Shown piece after piece: positions 48,140 through 52,509 of a stretch of DNA of 64,000 nucleotides. The notes beneath the pieces were generated by a model, which was not told where the DNA came from, did no database searches, and was given only the letters and a program-made list of their open reading frames with translations. Position numbers and translations under genes: made by a program. The stretch is from Hymenobacter cellulosilyticus (GTDB taxonomy: Bacteria; Bacteroidota; Bacteroidia; Cytophagales; Hymenobacteraceae): contig NZ_CP095046.1 in NCBI RefSeq assembly GCF_022919215.1, forward strand, positions 1,292,501 through 1,356,500, in the 5' to 3' direction. The first letter of the stretch is position 1. Each line of letters begins with the position of its first letter.

Positions 48140-49243
48140 ATGGCAACTCCCGTTCAACAAGATCAGGCCACGGCACCTCACCAGACTTCAGCTCCAGTGT
48201 ATGAGCCGGAAGAGCAGGAAGGCCGCTCGAAGCGCCCTTTCATCTTTATTATTCTAGCGCTGGTATTGCTCGTTGGCGGATATTTTGGCTATCAGCGCTA
48301 CCAGTTCGGCCAGGCCCACGAGGAAACCGACGACGCCCAGGTGGAAGGCGACGTATACCCAATTCTGCCCCGCGTAGCTGGCCCCGTGCTGGAAGTAAAG
48401 GTGGAAGACAACCAGCCCGTGAAAAAGGGTGACGTCCTGGCCATTCTCGACGCGGCTGACTACCAGCAGCGCGTAAATGCCGCGGAGGCCGCCCTGGCCG
48501 CTGCTCAGGCCAACGTAACGGCTGCCCGTGCCGGCGTCGGCACGGCCTCGGCCAACGTAAGCACCGCCCAGGCTACCATCGGGGTGAGTGACGCCAACCG
48601 CTCCCGCCTCGAAAAAGACTTGAAGCGCAGCGCCTTCCTGCGTAAGGAAGACATCATTCCGCAGAGCGAATACGACGCGGTGCAGGCCAACCTGAAGTCG
48701 ACCAGCGCCCAGCGCGCCACGGCGCAGCAGCAGGTGCAGGTAGCCCGCCAGCAGGTGGCCGCCGCCCAGCAGCAGGTAGCCGTAGCCCAGGCCGTGGTGA
48801 AGCAGCGTCAGGCCGACCTCGACAACGCCAAGCTGCAGCTGAGCTACACCACCATCACGGCCCCGGCCAACGGAGTAGTAAGCAAGAAGAACGTGCAGCC
48901 CGGCCAGATTGTAAGCCCTGGCCAGCAACTCATGGGCCTGGTAGCTTCCGAGAAAACCTGGGTTATTGCCAATTTCAAGGAAACCCAGCTGGAAAACATG
49001 AAGGTAAACCAGCCCGTGACGGTTGAAGTGGATGCATACCCCAACGAGGAGTTTGTGGGCCACATCGAGTCGCTGTCGGCTGCTACCGGCGCCCGTTTTG
49101 CCCTGCTGCCCCCCGACAACGCCTCCGGTAACTTCGTGAAAGTAACCCAGCGCGTACCCGTGAAAATCGTGCTCGACAAAGCTGACCCCGAGCACCCGCT
49201 GCGCGCCGGTATGAGCGTGACGGCCACGGTAAAGGTAAAATAA
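48140..49243 (+). CDS. emrA: EmrA/HlyD-family membrane fusion protein
   Basis: 367 residues. An N-terminal cytoplasmic part (residues 1-32) is followed by one membrane segment (FIFIILALVLLVGGYFGY), a biotinyl-lipoyl half (DDAQVEGDVYPILPRVAGPVLEVKVEDNQPVKKGDVLAIL), a long alpha-helical hairpin with Gln/Ala/Val repeats (residues 120-230) and the second lipoyl half (AKLQLSYTTITAPANGVVSKKNVQPGQ). The plan is that of EmrA. It connects the EmrB transporter with TolC and starts 75 bases after the usp gene. Confidence 0.92.
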   Translation: MATPVQQDQATAPHQTSAPVYEPEEQEGRSKRPFIFIILALVLLVGGYFGYQRYQFGQAHEETDDAQVEGDVYPILPRVAGPVLEVKVEDNQPVKKGDVLAILDAADYQQRVNAAEAALAAAQANVTAARAGVGTASANVSTAQATIGVSDANRSRLEKDLKRSAFLRKEDIIPQSEYDAVQANLKSTSAQRATAQQQVQVARQQVAAAQQQVAVAQAVVKQRQADLDNAKLQLSYTTITAPANGVVSKKNVQPGQIVSPGQQLMGLVASEKTWVIANFKETQLENMKVNQPVTVEVDAYPNEEFVGHIESLSAATGARFALLPPDNASGNFVKVTQRVPVKIVLDKADPEHPLRAGMSVTATVKVK

Positions 49244-49336: not shown

Positions 49337-50907
49337 TTGGAAACCGGATTTACCAAGTGGATCATCGTTATTACGGTGGTACTCTGCTGTTTGCTGGAGC
49401 TTATCGACACGAGTATCGTGAACGTGGCTTTGACCCAAATGATGGGCAACCTCTCAGCTACCCAGCAGGAAGTAACCTGGGTAATTGCCTCCTATGGCAT
49501 TGCCAACGTTATTGTGATTCCCATGACGGGCTTTTTGGCTGAGCAATTCGGCCGCCGCAACTACTACTTTGTGTCGGTGGTAATCTTCACGCTGGCTTCC
49601 ATTGCCTGCGGCCAGAGCACCAACATCTGGGAGCTGGTGGCTTTCCGCTTCATTCAGGGCATCGGGGGCGGCGCGTTGATGGCTACTTCGCAGGCCATCT
49701 TGATTGATACCTTTCCGCCCAAGCAGCTTCCGCTGGGTCAGGCCTTGTTTGGCATGGGTGTTATCATTGGCCCTACCATCGGCCCAACGCTGGGCGGCTA
49801 CATCGTGGATAACTACGACTGGCCCTGGATTTTCTACGTCAACGTGCCCGTAGGCGTAATGGCCTCCATCTTTACCATCCTGTTTATCCGGGACCCGAGC
49901 GGATCAAGAATGCCATTCCGCGGCCGTTGCGGGAAATTGACTGGGCCGGCATTTTTCTGCTGATTCTGGGCGTGGGCTCCTTGCAGCTGGTACTGGAGCA
50001 GGGCGAAACCGAAGACTGGTTTGAAAGCGCCTATATCAACAGCTTTACGGCCTTGGCTATCATTGGAATGGTGGGTTTTGTGTGGCGGGAACTCACGGCC
50101 GCGCAGCCCATCGTGGATCTGCGGGTGCTGGGCAAGAGCCGCAACCTGGCCGTCGGCGCGGTGCTCTCGTTCGTGCTGGGCTTCGGCATGTTTGCCTCGG
50201 TGTTCATCTTCCCGATTTTCACCCAGCGCATTTTGGGCTTTAGCGCGGCCCAAACGGGCTATATCCTGCTGCCTGGTGCCTTGGCTTCGGGCATGATGAT
50301 GCCCATCATCGGCAAGATGCTGCAGGCCGGCGTGCCCCAGAAATACATGATTCCGGTGGGCTTCTCTATCTTCTTCGTCTTCACCTTCTGGATGGCCAAA
50401 ATCATTTCGCCCACCGCCGGTGAGGAAGACTTCTTCTGGCCTTTGATGGTGCGCGGCCTGGGTATGGGCCTGATCTTCCTGCCCATCACGACCATGAGTC
50501 TGGCTGGTCTGAAGGGCAAGGACGCAGGCCAGGCGGCCGGTCTCACCGGTATGATTCGCCAGCTCGGCGGCTCGTTCGGAGTAGCCATCGTGGGTACCTA
50601 CCTAGAGCGTAGCATTGCCCAGAACCGCATCAGCCCGCTGGCTCATATCTCGCTCTACGACACCAACACGGTGCAGCGCATTCAGGCATTCACGGCCAAC
50701 TTTATGTCGCGCGGCTTCTCCTTTGAGCAAGCCCAGAAGCAGGCTTATGCAGCCCTGGAAGGCATTCTGATGAAGCAGGTTTCCATTATTACCTACTCTC
50801 AGGTGTTCTCCATGATTGGCCTGTTTTTCGTGGTCTGCCTGCCGCTGGTGCTGTTTATCAAGCGTGCCAAGGGCGGTGAAGCCATTGACCTAAATGCCGC
50901 TCACTAG
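49337..50907 (+). CDS. emrB: EmrB-type (DHA2) MFS drug transporter, frameshifted
   Basis: The protein starts at TTG (49337: METGFTKWIIVITVVLCCLLELIDTSIVNVALTQM). It has the MFS motif GFLAEQFGRR, motif C GVIIGPTIGPTLGGYIVDN and 14 predicted membrane segments. The frame breaks at the C run at 49894-49896; one added C restores FIRDPERIKNAIPRPLREIDWAG and gives 523 residues, normal for EmrB. It lies 93 bases after emrA. With EmrA and TolC it probably exports hydrophobic toxins using the proton gradient. Confidence 0.9.
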
Positions 50908-50931
50908 CGGTGAGATGGTGAAATGGTGAGT
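50908..50931. repeat. GGTGA-word repeat, copy near emrB end
   Basis: GGTGAGATGGTGAAATGGTG directly after the emrB stop. Its complement recurs at 51440-51474 (CTCACCACTTCAC...CTCACAATTTCACC). The two copies flank the 42-bp palindrome array in opposite orientation. Confidence 0.5.
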
Positions 50932-50960
50932 GTCGTTCTGGCAACGCTTACTCAGCTTAT

Positions 50961-50993
50961 AAAAGGCAGTCGTGCTTAGCGCGGCTGCCTTTT
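50961..50993 (+). terminator. Hairpin terminator of the efflux operon
   Basis: Stem AAAAGGCAG(T)CG / CG(G)CTGCCTTTT, with a run of T in GCTTTTTC after it. It lies 53 bases after the emrB stop. Confidence 0.8.
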
Positions 50994-51072
50994 GCTTTTT
51001 CGGGAGAGTCTGTTGTCAAGGACAGTGGAGCTGCGCGCGTTAGAAAACTGCCTGTCGACTTGTGGGCAAGCG

Positions 51073-51324
51073 CTACTCGAAGGCTAGAAAGGCCTCCGGG
51101 CAACTCGGGAGGAGCTGCATGAATTGCAAAAATGCCTCCGAGTACTCGGGACAGGCTTTCCAAACTTCAAAAATGTTTCCCGAGTACTCGGCGTGGGCTT
51201 TTCGAATTATAAAAGGCCCTCCTGAGTACTCGGGGTGGGGTGCACGATTCGCGCAAGTACTCCCTGAGTACTCGGGCCCGGCTACCTGAAATCCGTAAGC
51301 CTCTCCCGAGTACTCGGGAGGCAT
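51073..51324 (-). CDS. Possible 14-residue repeat peptide in the palindrome array
   Basis: An open frame of 83 codons from an ATG at 51324. It reads as 14-residue units: PEYSGEAYGFQVAG, PEYSGSTCANRAPH, PEYSGGPFIIRKAH, AEYSGNIFEVWKAC, PEYSEAFLQFMQLL. The plus strand (51062-51289, GTG start) gives similar units in PEYSG-x9, because the core is a palindrome. No Shine-Dalgarno or signal peptide is seen. This could be coding or a by-product of the DNA repeat. Confidence 0.3.
   Translation of the reverse strand: MPPEYSGEAYGFQVAGPEYSGSTCANRAPHPEYSGGPFIIRKAHAEYSGNIFEVWKACPEYSEAFLQFMQLLPSCPEAFLAFE
51096..51317. repeat. Phased array of 12-bp palindromes with exact 42-bp spacing
   Basis: AGTACT, at the centre of CCGAGTACTCGG or CTGAGTACTCGG, starts at 51141, 51183, 51225, 51267 and 51309: five copies, each exactly 42 bases apart. 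A degenerate copy (CCGGGCAACTCGG) lies 42 bases to the left, at 51096. An off-phase AGTACT at 51256 is 11 bases before the fourth. The 30-base spacers are only weakly alike (GGCTTT...AATT...AAAA in some). 42 bp is four helical turns and 14 codons. Both strands stay open through the array and read PEYSG in every unit. I do not recognise the element. Confidence 0.75.
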
Positions 51325-51372
51325 TTTGATCTTATTGGAACGGCACTAAAACCCTGAGTCGACCTAAAAACG

Positions 51373-51401
51373 AAGCCCCGTCGTGCGTCACGACGGGGCT
51401 T
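51373..51401 (-). terminator. 13-bp perfect-stem terminator
   Basis: AAGCCCCGTCGTG / CACGACGGGGCTT with a three-base loop. The left side carries A5 (CTAAAAACG), so the minus strand has the T-run. It is 71 bases past the stop at 51472. Confidence 0.8.
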
Positions 51402-51439: not shown

Positions 51440-51474
51440 ACTCACCACTTCACTAGCTCACAATTTCACCACTA
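51440..51474. repeat. GGTGA-word repeat, inverted copy
   Basis: CAACTCACCACTTCACTAGC followed by TCACAATTTCACC: the reverse complement in style of 50908-50931 and of the arm at 47528. It ends against the stop codon of the lipoprotein gene at 51472. Confidence 0.5.
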
Positions 51475-52509
51475 TTGGTACTGAATGTAGAGAGGCTTTG
51501 GGGTAAGCTGGGTCAGGACCTCGGTGGGGGTCATGATGTGGTGGGGCTTGGGGCGGGCGTCGTACTCGTAGAACAGCTTGAAGCCGGTGTACTGCACGGG
51601 CTCGGTCTGGATGTAGTCGTGGTAGGAGTCCTTTTTCAGGGTCGGCTCGCCGTGGCCGTCCATGTGCATCACCACCTGCACGCGCGGGTCGAGCTTGATG
51701 TTTTTGTAGTTGGTTACCATTTTCCGGGTGAAGCGGTGCACCGTCAGAACCTTGGGCGGGAGCTTGTTTTCGCTCACGATGCGGGCCAGGAAGTTGATGG
51801 TAAAGTTGATGTCCTTGGCGTCGAGGGTACCAATTTTCTGGTTGGGACGCACGCCGGGCATGGTCGAGAGCGAGAATTCGGGGTCGATGCCGAGGTGAAT
51901 GTCGGGCTGCTTGAGGTACTCAGTGAGTTTGGGCAGTTCGGCTTCCAGGGTGCTGTGGCCGGGCTGCACGTCCAGAAACAGGATGCAGTTATGCTCCCGG
52001 GCCCAGGAAATTACTTCCTCAATGGTGGCCTTGGAGTTCATCAGACGCCATTTGCCGTCCTTGCCGGGCGTGCCCTGGGCCGTGATGGTGACGTTGTGCA
52101 GGGCGGCCTGCACCGGAATGCTGGGGTCGGCGGCCTGCCATTCCTTCAGCACGCCTTCAAACTTGCGGAACATCTGCTCCTTGGGCTCCCGGCCCAGAAT
52201 ACCCATGCCTTTCGAGCGGATGTTGCCATAGAAAGCCACGATGCGCTTACCCGGCAGAATGGCGCCCGGCAGCTGCCCGCTTTTTCGTACGATGGAGTCG
52301 GCCTTGAGCGAGTCGCGCAGCATAGCCTGCTTTTTCAGGGCTGCGCTGTCGATTACAACGGGCTTGGTAGGCACTTCTGCGGTGGCCTTGGTGTCGGCTG
52401 TTTCCCCGTCGGAGCGGGTGCCGCAGCTGGCAAAAGCCAAAGTGAACATCAGGCCCAGGGCTGGTAGAAATGGGCGGGAAAAGCGGGTAGAAGAAGACGT
52501 GGGCGACAC
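51472..52509 (-). CDS. Lipoprotein with possible TIM-barrel domain
   Basis: 345 residues, GTG start at 52509. A lipoprotein signal ends TLAFASC (Cys at residue 29). The rest (residues 75-345) looks like a TIM barrel with strands RIVAFYGNIRSKGMG, NCILFLDVQPGHS, IHLGIDPEFS, KVLTVHRFT and RVQVVMHMDGHG, and acidic ends on several strands (LDVQPGHS, GIDPEFS). Such a fold suggests a glycosidase-like enzyme, but no family is named with certainty. The gene is alone on its strand. Confidence 0.65.
   Translation of the reverse strand: MSPTSSSTRFSRPFLPALGLMFTLAFASCGTRSDGETADTKATAEVPTKPVVIDSAALKKQAMLRDSLKADSIVRKSGQLPGAILPGKRIVAFYGNIRSKGMGILGREPKEQMFRKFEGVLKEWQAADPSIPVQAALHNVTITAQGTPGKDGKWRLMNSKATIEEVISWAREHNCILFLDVQPGHSTLEAELPKLTEYLKQPDIHLGIDPEFSLSTMPGVRPNQKIGTLDAKDINFTINFLARIVSENKLPPKVLTVHRFTRKMVTNYKNIKLDPRVQVVMHMDGHGEPTLKKDSYHDYIQTEPVQYTGFKLFYEYDARPKPHHIMTPTEVLTQLTPKPLYIQYQ

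Follow-up and report, generated by a model that had tools for sequence, protein, structure and literature searches.

The window analysed here is a 64,000-nt stretch of the Hymenobacter cellulosilyticus genome (C1:1292501-1356500) that carries an array of tandem palindromic units in a 42-bp register. It is best explained as one of the scattered copies of a type of DNA element specific to Hymenobacter. The palindrome AGTACT starts at 51141, 51183, 51225, 51267 and 51309, with 42 bp between successive starts, exactly as claimed in a first-pass annotation made from the letters alone. AGTACT occurs 15 times in the window against 7.1 expected, a count reached in none of 100 shuffles, and an extra copy at 51256 is out of the array register. 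Repeat finding returned four 52-nt copies with spacings of 42, 42 and 42, the three others being 63-73% identical to the reference copy. Tandem Repeats Finder (score 40) did not report the window array, whose units have diverged. The degenerate copy proposed 42 bases to the left was recovered as a decayed unit, although MAFFT aligned its core with a shift of one base.

The window genome has two further arrays (L025, L034), which likewise lie at convergent sites. Of 101 genomes, the 30 that matched best were inspected at the orthologous window site. A 42-bp array was present there in the window genome (G000), H. chitinivorans (G067), H. aquaticus (G114), H. lucidus (G102) and H. persicinus (G017), and a degenerate array in H. 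cellulosivorans (G074), which supports a phased array with position and period kept in other genomes. Twelve other loci with the same major facilitator superfamily (MFS) neighbour (L098, L101-L106, L109-L111, L116, L118) had a short spacer only, as judged by eye, and H. nitidus (L151) has the window site with a short spacer and no array. The core words at the window site differ by species (GAGTACTC; GAGTAGGC/GCCTACTC; GTCTAC/GTAGAC; GACAAGTC; GACCAGCC); from one species to another the word is exchanged, and register, dyad and linker are constant. The first-pass annotation had suggested selection on the palindrome with diverging spacers. This is true only within the window array; across arrays and species AGTACT is replaced and the linker and A/T scaffold are kept, and since the core word is species-specific the pattern is reversed between species. 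Other conserved array sites were the 3' end of a 3-hydroxyacyl-CoA dehydrogenase gene beside msrA (8 genomes), pabB-like/CAT-like (5 genomes), MFS/345-aa (5 genomes) and HAD/DsbA (4 genomes), and different species had different words at one conserved site. A search with a one-unit model, in which 150 of at least 378 candidates were scored per genome, gave many more arrays in twelve genomes among the matches listed. Outside the genus, a search of the order gave weak matches in 12 genomes, and none of the 10 loci scanned had a clear 42-bp period. Literature searches for Hymenobacter in an open-access library gave no paper.

The register was measured in a first set of nine arrays (49 units), which excludes the degenerate G074 window-site array, the initial L025 unit (spaced by 41 bp) and two words of L093 that are shifted by half a unit, and in a second set of 21 arrays (138 units). 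For the search, 33 loci were fetched and a filter kept 21, dropping L306, L307, L321, L322, L325, L327-L329 and L332-L335. Of these, L306 and L307 are arrays by eye, and the other dropped loci viewed in full resemble lone terminators (L321 was viewed partly). The best direct offset between neighbouring units of the nine arrays was 42 in 40 of 40 pairs, with two ties, at a mean identity of 57%. With the core masked and spacing left free between 30 and 54 bp, chains of at least three units in the 33 fetched loci gave 98 of 177 spacings at 42, 15 at 41 and 13 at 43, and shuffled loci gave a flat distribution. Palindromy in the nine arrays had two maxima 21 bp apart, the first in the middle of the word (0.53) and the second at 0.51, against about 0.25 elsewhere; the second set gave 0.53 for the word dyad and 0.39 for the second dyad. 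A length of 42 bp corresponds to four helical turns and 21 bp to two. The dyad is supported by paired changes across arrays (202 cells against 121.5 shuffled, 0/500, pairs from both sets); no such signal was found within single arrays.

Twelve array loci share a neighbouring gene family, fam0, with the array always at the fam0 3' end and eight gene kinds on the other side. These twelve had been located via their arrays. A protein-only search blind to arrays gave a fam0 match in 11 of 61 genomes, nine of them to the main subfamily (E < 1e-60); several fam0 genomes also hold distant paralogs. All 15 full-length members (nine main, six divergent) are followed by a palindrome array with a period of 41-43 bp and a word of its own, and the best lag behind fam0 in the range 15-119 was 42, 43, 83 or 84 in 15/15. 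Downstream scores at lag 41-43 were 0.50-0.90, compared with a median of 0.39, a 99% level of 0.50 and a maximum of 0.57 in 600 null windows. The weakest member (G077) had p 0.015 at lag 41-43 but scored 0.86 at lag 84, a C-terminal fam0 frame (L387) scored at the null level, and a marginal match (L388) was left out of the array assessment. As a baseline, four of 127 window blocks of 500 nt reached 0.50, including the window array and a within-gene stretch at 48.4-48.7 kb. The words of the divergent members are GGTACGCGCGTACC, TAGGGAATCCTA, GGACGCGCGCGCC, AGAGAGCTCTC, GCGGACGTCCGC and GTAGGACGTCCTAC and their linkers also differ; despite these unlike words and linkers, both subfamilies show an autocorrelation of palindromy with maxima at 42.0 and 21.0 bp. 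The window genome holds a main member at C1:2435167-2435847 and a divergent one at C1:3015903-3016580.

The proteins of the family are about 230 aa long (representative P0001, 229 aa). Pfam gave no match at 0.001, the NCBIfam, PADLOC and PHROGs searches with P0001 gave no convincing one, and among the matches listed the homologs with a name came from Hymenobacter or Bacteroidota metagenome bins. The structure predicted for the fam0 copy of the window genome was confidently all-helical, with a mean predicted local distance difference test (pLDDT) score of 87.8 and a predicted template modelling (pTM) score of 0.62. A structure search gave no telling match, so DNA binding by fam0 is something that we infer.

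Genomes with at least five two-unit matches among the matches listed were counted as array-rich. Across the 61 genomes, 8/9 with a main-subfamily fam0 were array-rich against 2/52 without (p 1e-7), and 4/5 against 1/50 when the model-training genomes were left out (p 7e-5), both by statistics that ignore phylogeny. The reading to which we give the most weight, at a little short of an even chance, is that fam0 and its array form a gene-array module. The element consists of tandem palindromic units at gene 3' ends, repeated every 42 bp (four turns) and with a second dyad offset by 21 bp (two turns). Its geometry (dyad, 42/21 spacing, A/T-flanked linker) is kept while the core word is replaced between species and sites. 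The fam0 gene and the adjacent array would be one module, the fam0 proteins would bind and assemble on the helically phased dimer sites, and the same-scaffold arrays elsewhere, the window array included, would be further sites placed or maintained by the fam0 system, with a possible effect on the neighbouring genes.

Several points weigh against this reading. Arrays were found without a fam0 match in G011 and G003, a fam0 gene with one weak two-unit match in G025, and phylogeny is not accounted for in the association. Dispersed arrays within one genome do not share the word of the fam0 array, and the very distant 16th fam0 member (G017) has its array 5' and none 3'. For fam0, whose binding to array DNA is presumed, Pfam gave no match and the structure search no telling one, and the units are similar to terminator hairpins. 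The arrays of G024 and G109 have a period of 43, which together with some 41- and 43-bp spacings relaxes the exact-phase argument. Adjacent words alternated strongly in orientation in the nine-array set (0/5000) and weakly in the 21-array set (p 0.16, 0.019 and 0.049), and because of this poor replication it is not relied on.

The array could also be a neutral or selfish minisatellite, in which palindromic units spread and are homogenised by slippage, template switching and gene conversion and gene ends tolerate the insertions. This would fit the patchy presence at the window site, where H. nitidus and 12 other genomes have the same neighbours and no array, and the greater likeness of neighbouring units than in shuffled order. 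Against it, the spacing is kept with neighbouring units 57% identical, and in the alignment of the orthologous G000 and G074 arrays 7/13 gaps and 22/33 gap bases fall in the flanks, which make up about a third of its length. Moreover, the 42/21 geometry recurs with unrelated sequences and the arrays accompany one protein family. The minisatellite explanation is considered improbable. The tandem repeat in decay put forward in the first-pass annotation agrees with the sequence and disagrees with the spacing.

Gene orientation was assigned with a codon-usage open reading frame (ORF) caller written for this analysis. Of 30 arrays, 16 have convergent and 11 have tandem neighbours, and two at contig ends received no orientation. 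One (L314) was called divergent from a short spurious ORF; it is tandem by its orthologs and was reassigned by hand, giving 12 tandem. No array then remains between divergent genes, as would be expected if the array were a tandem amplification of an intrinsic bidirectional terminator hairpin, acting at the RNA level as serial terminators or a 3'-end stabiliser, with fam0 as just another gene with such an array. The 3'-end position and the A/T tracts also fit this explanation, and single matches of the one-unit model resemble lone terminators. Relative to dinucleotide shuffles the units fold lower (mean z -1.60 and -1.30, against -0.10 for the flanks), strong terminator hairpins inside arrays are exactly in register in 10 of 11 cases, and 7/13 hairpins outside are within 2 bp of the register against 1.5 expected, five of the seven representing one orthologous site. 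Tandem intrinsic terminators are similar in being A/T-flanked hairpins at gene 3' ends, with predicted terminators in register in some arrays. The Hymenobacter arrays differ in their number of units (three to about seven, and a chain of 13 in L310), most of which have no T-tract, in their fixed spacing and in the tie to fam0. At least four T in the tract columns were present in 70/187 units, leaving 117/187 without a T-tract, and both an A- and a T-tract were present in only 27/187. RNAalifold gave no common structure, and no G-U excess was seen in fam0 arrays (102:73 against a background of 1.29, p 0.64) or tandem arrays (48:34 against 0.98, p 0.12). The window array is already flanked by terminator-like hairpins on both sides, and the fixed 42/21 spacing with unrelated sequences and the fam0 tie would be left unexplained. 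We lean towards phased sites at the DNA level rather than RNA hairpins, and regard amplified terminators as unlikely though worth keeping in view.

Extragenic palindrome clusters are a common feature, whose spread is attributed mainly to repetitive extragenic palindrome (REP)-associated tyrosine transposases (RAYT, also called TnpA-REP), according to passages of PMC2817692. In the parts of PMC2817692, PMC3733652 and PMC6006769 that bear on them, REP and bacterial interspersed mosaic elements (BIME) resemble the Hymenobacter arrays in forming regularly spaced extragenic palindrome clusters with dispersed copies, in having a protein gene beside its own array, and in a copy number that follows presence of the gene. 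The Hymenobacter arrays differ in their strict 42-bp register and freely exchanged word, and fam0 differs from RAYT in having no Y1_Tnp (PF01797) match and modelling as all helices, not as a Y1 HUH transposase. Y1_Tnp was matched in 7/12 genomes searched and not in the array-bearing G000, G074 and G091, and column counts of the 187 units gave neither a GTAG nor a CGTC tag at the palindrome foot. Membership of REP/RAYT fails on these two results, and the best reading is that fam0 and its array work like REP/RAYT without being a member. In G067 and G102 (L238, L236) a RAYT gene lies 5' of fam0, followed by its own different hairpin TAGCGCGAACTTTGTAGTTCGCG; among the RAYT loci, L236-L238 contain fam0 members, and arrays were present in two of these, L237 and L238. 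A hairpin similar to TAGCGCGAACTTTGTAGTTCGCG was also seen beside an array in G077 (L344).

Type III toxin-antitoxin systems (ToxIN) likewise have a protein gene beside a short tandem array, as described in part of PMC5086642. In a pair of this type fam0 would be the effector, the transcribed repeats its RNA partner and the other arrays orphan copies, and the single protein gene next to a short tandem array, the units being similar in size, would agree with it. In 15/16 fam0 members, however, the array is 3' of the gene and not on the 5' side following a promoter and terminator, and membership fails on this gene order when compared with the arrangement given in that part of PMC5086642. The units are dyad-symmetric without G-U excess, there are many dispersed arrays, and the protein is unrelated. 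In the comparison with a ToxN-like endoribonuclease, fam0 matched none of the known toxin families and gave a helical model. We consider such a pair very improbable. Clustered regularly interspaced short palindromic repeats (CRISPR) also place a short palindromic element at regular intervals. The Hymenobacter arrays do not show the near-identical repeats and unique spacers of CRISPR, as neighbouring units are 57% identical, the linker is the conserved part and the units reach from word to word.

The link between fam0 and the arrays points to a partnership of a protein with evenly phased DNA repeats that is apparently undescribed so far. It is conceivable, with a probability nearer a third than a half, that a lineage-specific helical protein family in which each member owns an adjacent palindrome array phased at four and two turns, and seeds same-scaffold arrays behind other genes, represents a new kind of module. 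If this is true, the signal would lie in geometry and not in sequence, with words exchanged and the 42/21-bp phasing staying, and a REP-like dispersal or chromosome-organising system would have arisen without an HUH transposase. A second protein family tied to palindrome arrays and unrelated to RAYT would provide an independent case. With a phasing of 42/21 bp and a word that changes freely, an old question can be tested, namely whether palindrome clusters persist on account of DNA geometry (protein assembly or supercoiling between genes) or of hairpins in the RNA.

The features of the window array and its surroundings are listed in Table 1. An open frame on both strands had been noted, and ORFs of 75 aa (+ strand, 51062-51289) and 83 aa (- strand, 51073-51324) were confirmed, although the + frame ends after four of the five palindromes. 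A small repeat peptide was rejected, as the same frame is interrupted by one or more stops in all eight other first-set arrays and in the window array, and none of the six frames is stop-free across the 187 units. PEYSG is read on both strands because the core is palindromic, and its frame is a by-product of the array.

Table 1. Coordinates of the array and neighbouring features in the window.
Feature	Position	Strand	Basis
Array of six 42-bp units (starts 51082, 51124, 51166, 51208, 51250, 51292; first decayed)	51082..51333		Register and stacking
Core word of decayed unit, GGGCAACT	51098..51105		
Core word of unit 2, GAGTACTC	51140..51147		
Core word of unit 3, GAGTACTC	51182..51189		
Core word of unit 4, GAGTACTC	51224..51231		
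Core word of unit 5, GAGTACTC	51266..51273		
Core word of unit 6, GAGTACTC; unit also terminator-like on + strand	51308..51315		
Terminator-like hairpin of MFS gene, 1.5 bp off array register	50960..50994	+	
Terminator-like hairpin of convergent gene, 8.5 bp off register	51373..51401	-	
MFS transporter, 3' part; upstream part in other frame, 49337-49963	49927..50907	+	
Convergent 345-aa protein, no Pfam match, present in 101/101 Hymenobacter genomes	51475..52509	-	

The neighbouring genes are convergent with GGTGA words on either side of the array, as the first-pass annotation had it. The GGTGA repeat word GGTGAGTTGTCGTTCTGG gave 38 genome matches against 8 control matches, and such words also occur at array-less sites (L101, L103, L106); they are a repeat separate from the palindrome array. 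They lie in the sense direction behind stop codons at 50907-50935 and 51440-51475 of the window and also in L103, L085 and L120. They are mirrored across convergent spacers, and the mirrored sequence varies by locus, extending over nearly 30 bp in L103 and made of other words in L085. The MFS gene runs in two frames (49337-50907), possibly due to an assembly indel error, and the same may apply to the pabB-like gene, whose 3' end (L025 1340-1413) is out of frame compared with its orthologs. The 42-bp self-similarity (0.58) at 48434-48718 is within a membrane-fusion-type gene and is probably a coiled-coil repeat. Behind the orthologous 345-aa gene, H. ruricola (L172) has another, G+C-rich palindromic array with best self-similarity at 63 and 84 bp, and a stretch of the same G+C-rich kind was seen in G060 (L115).
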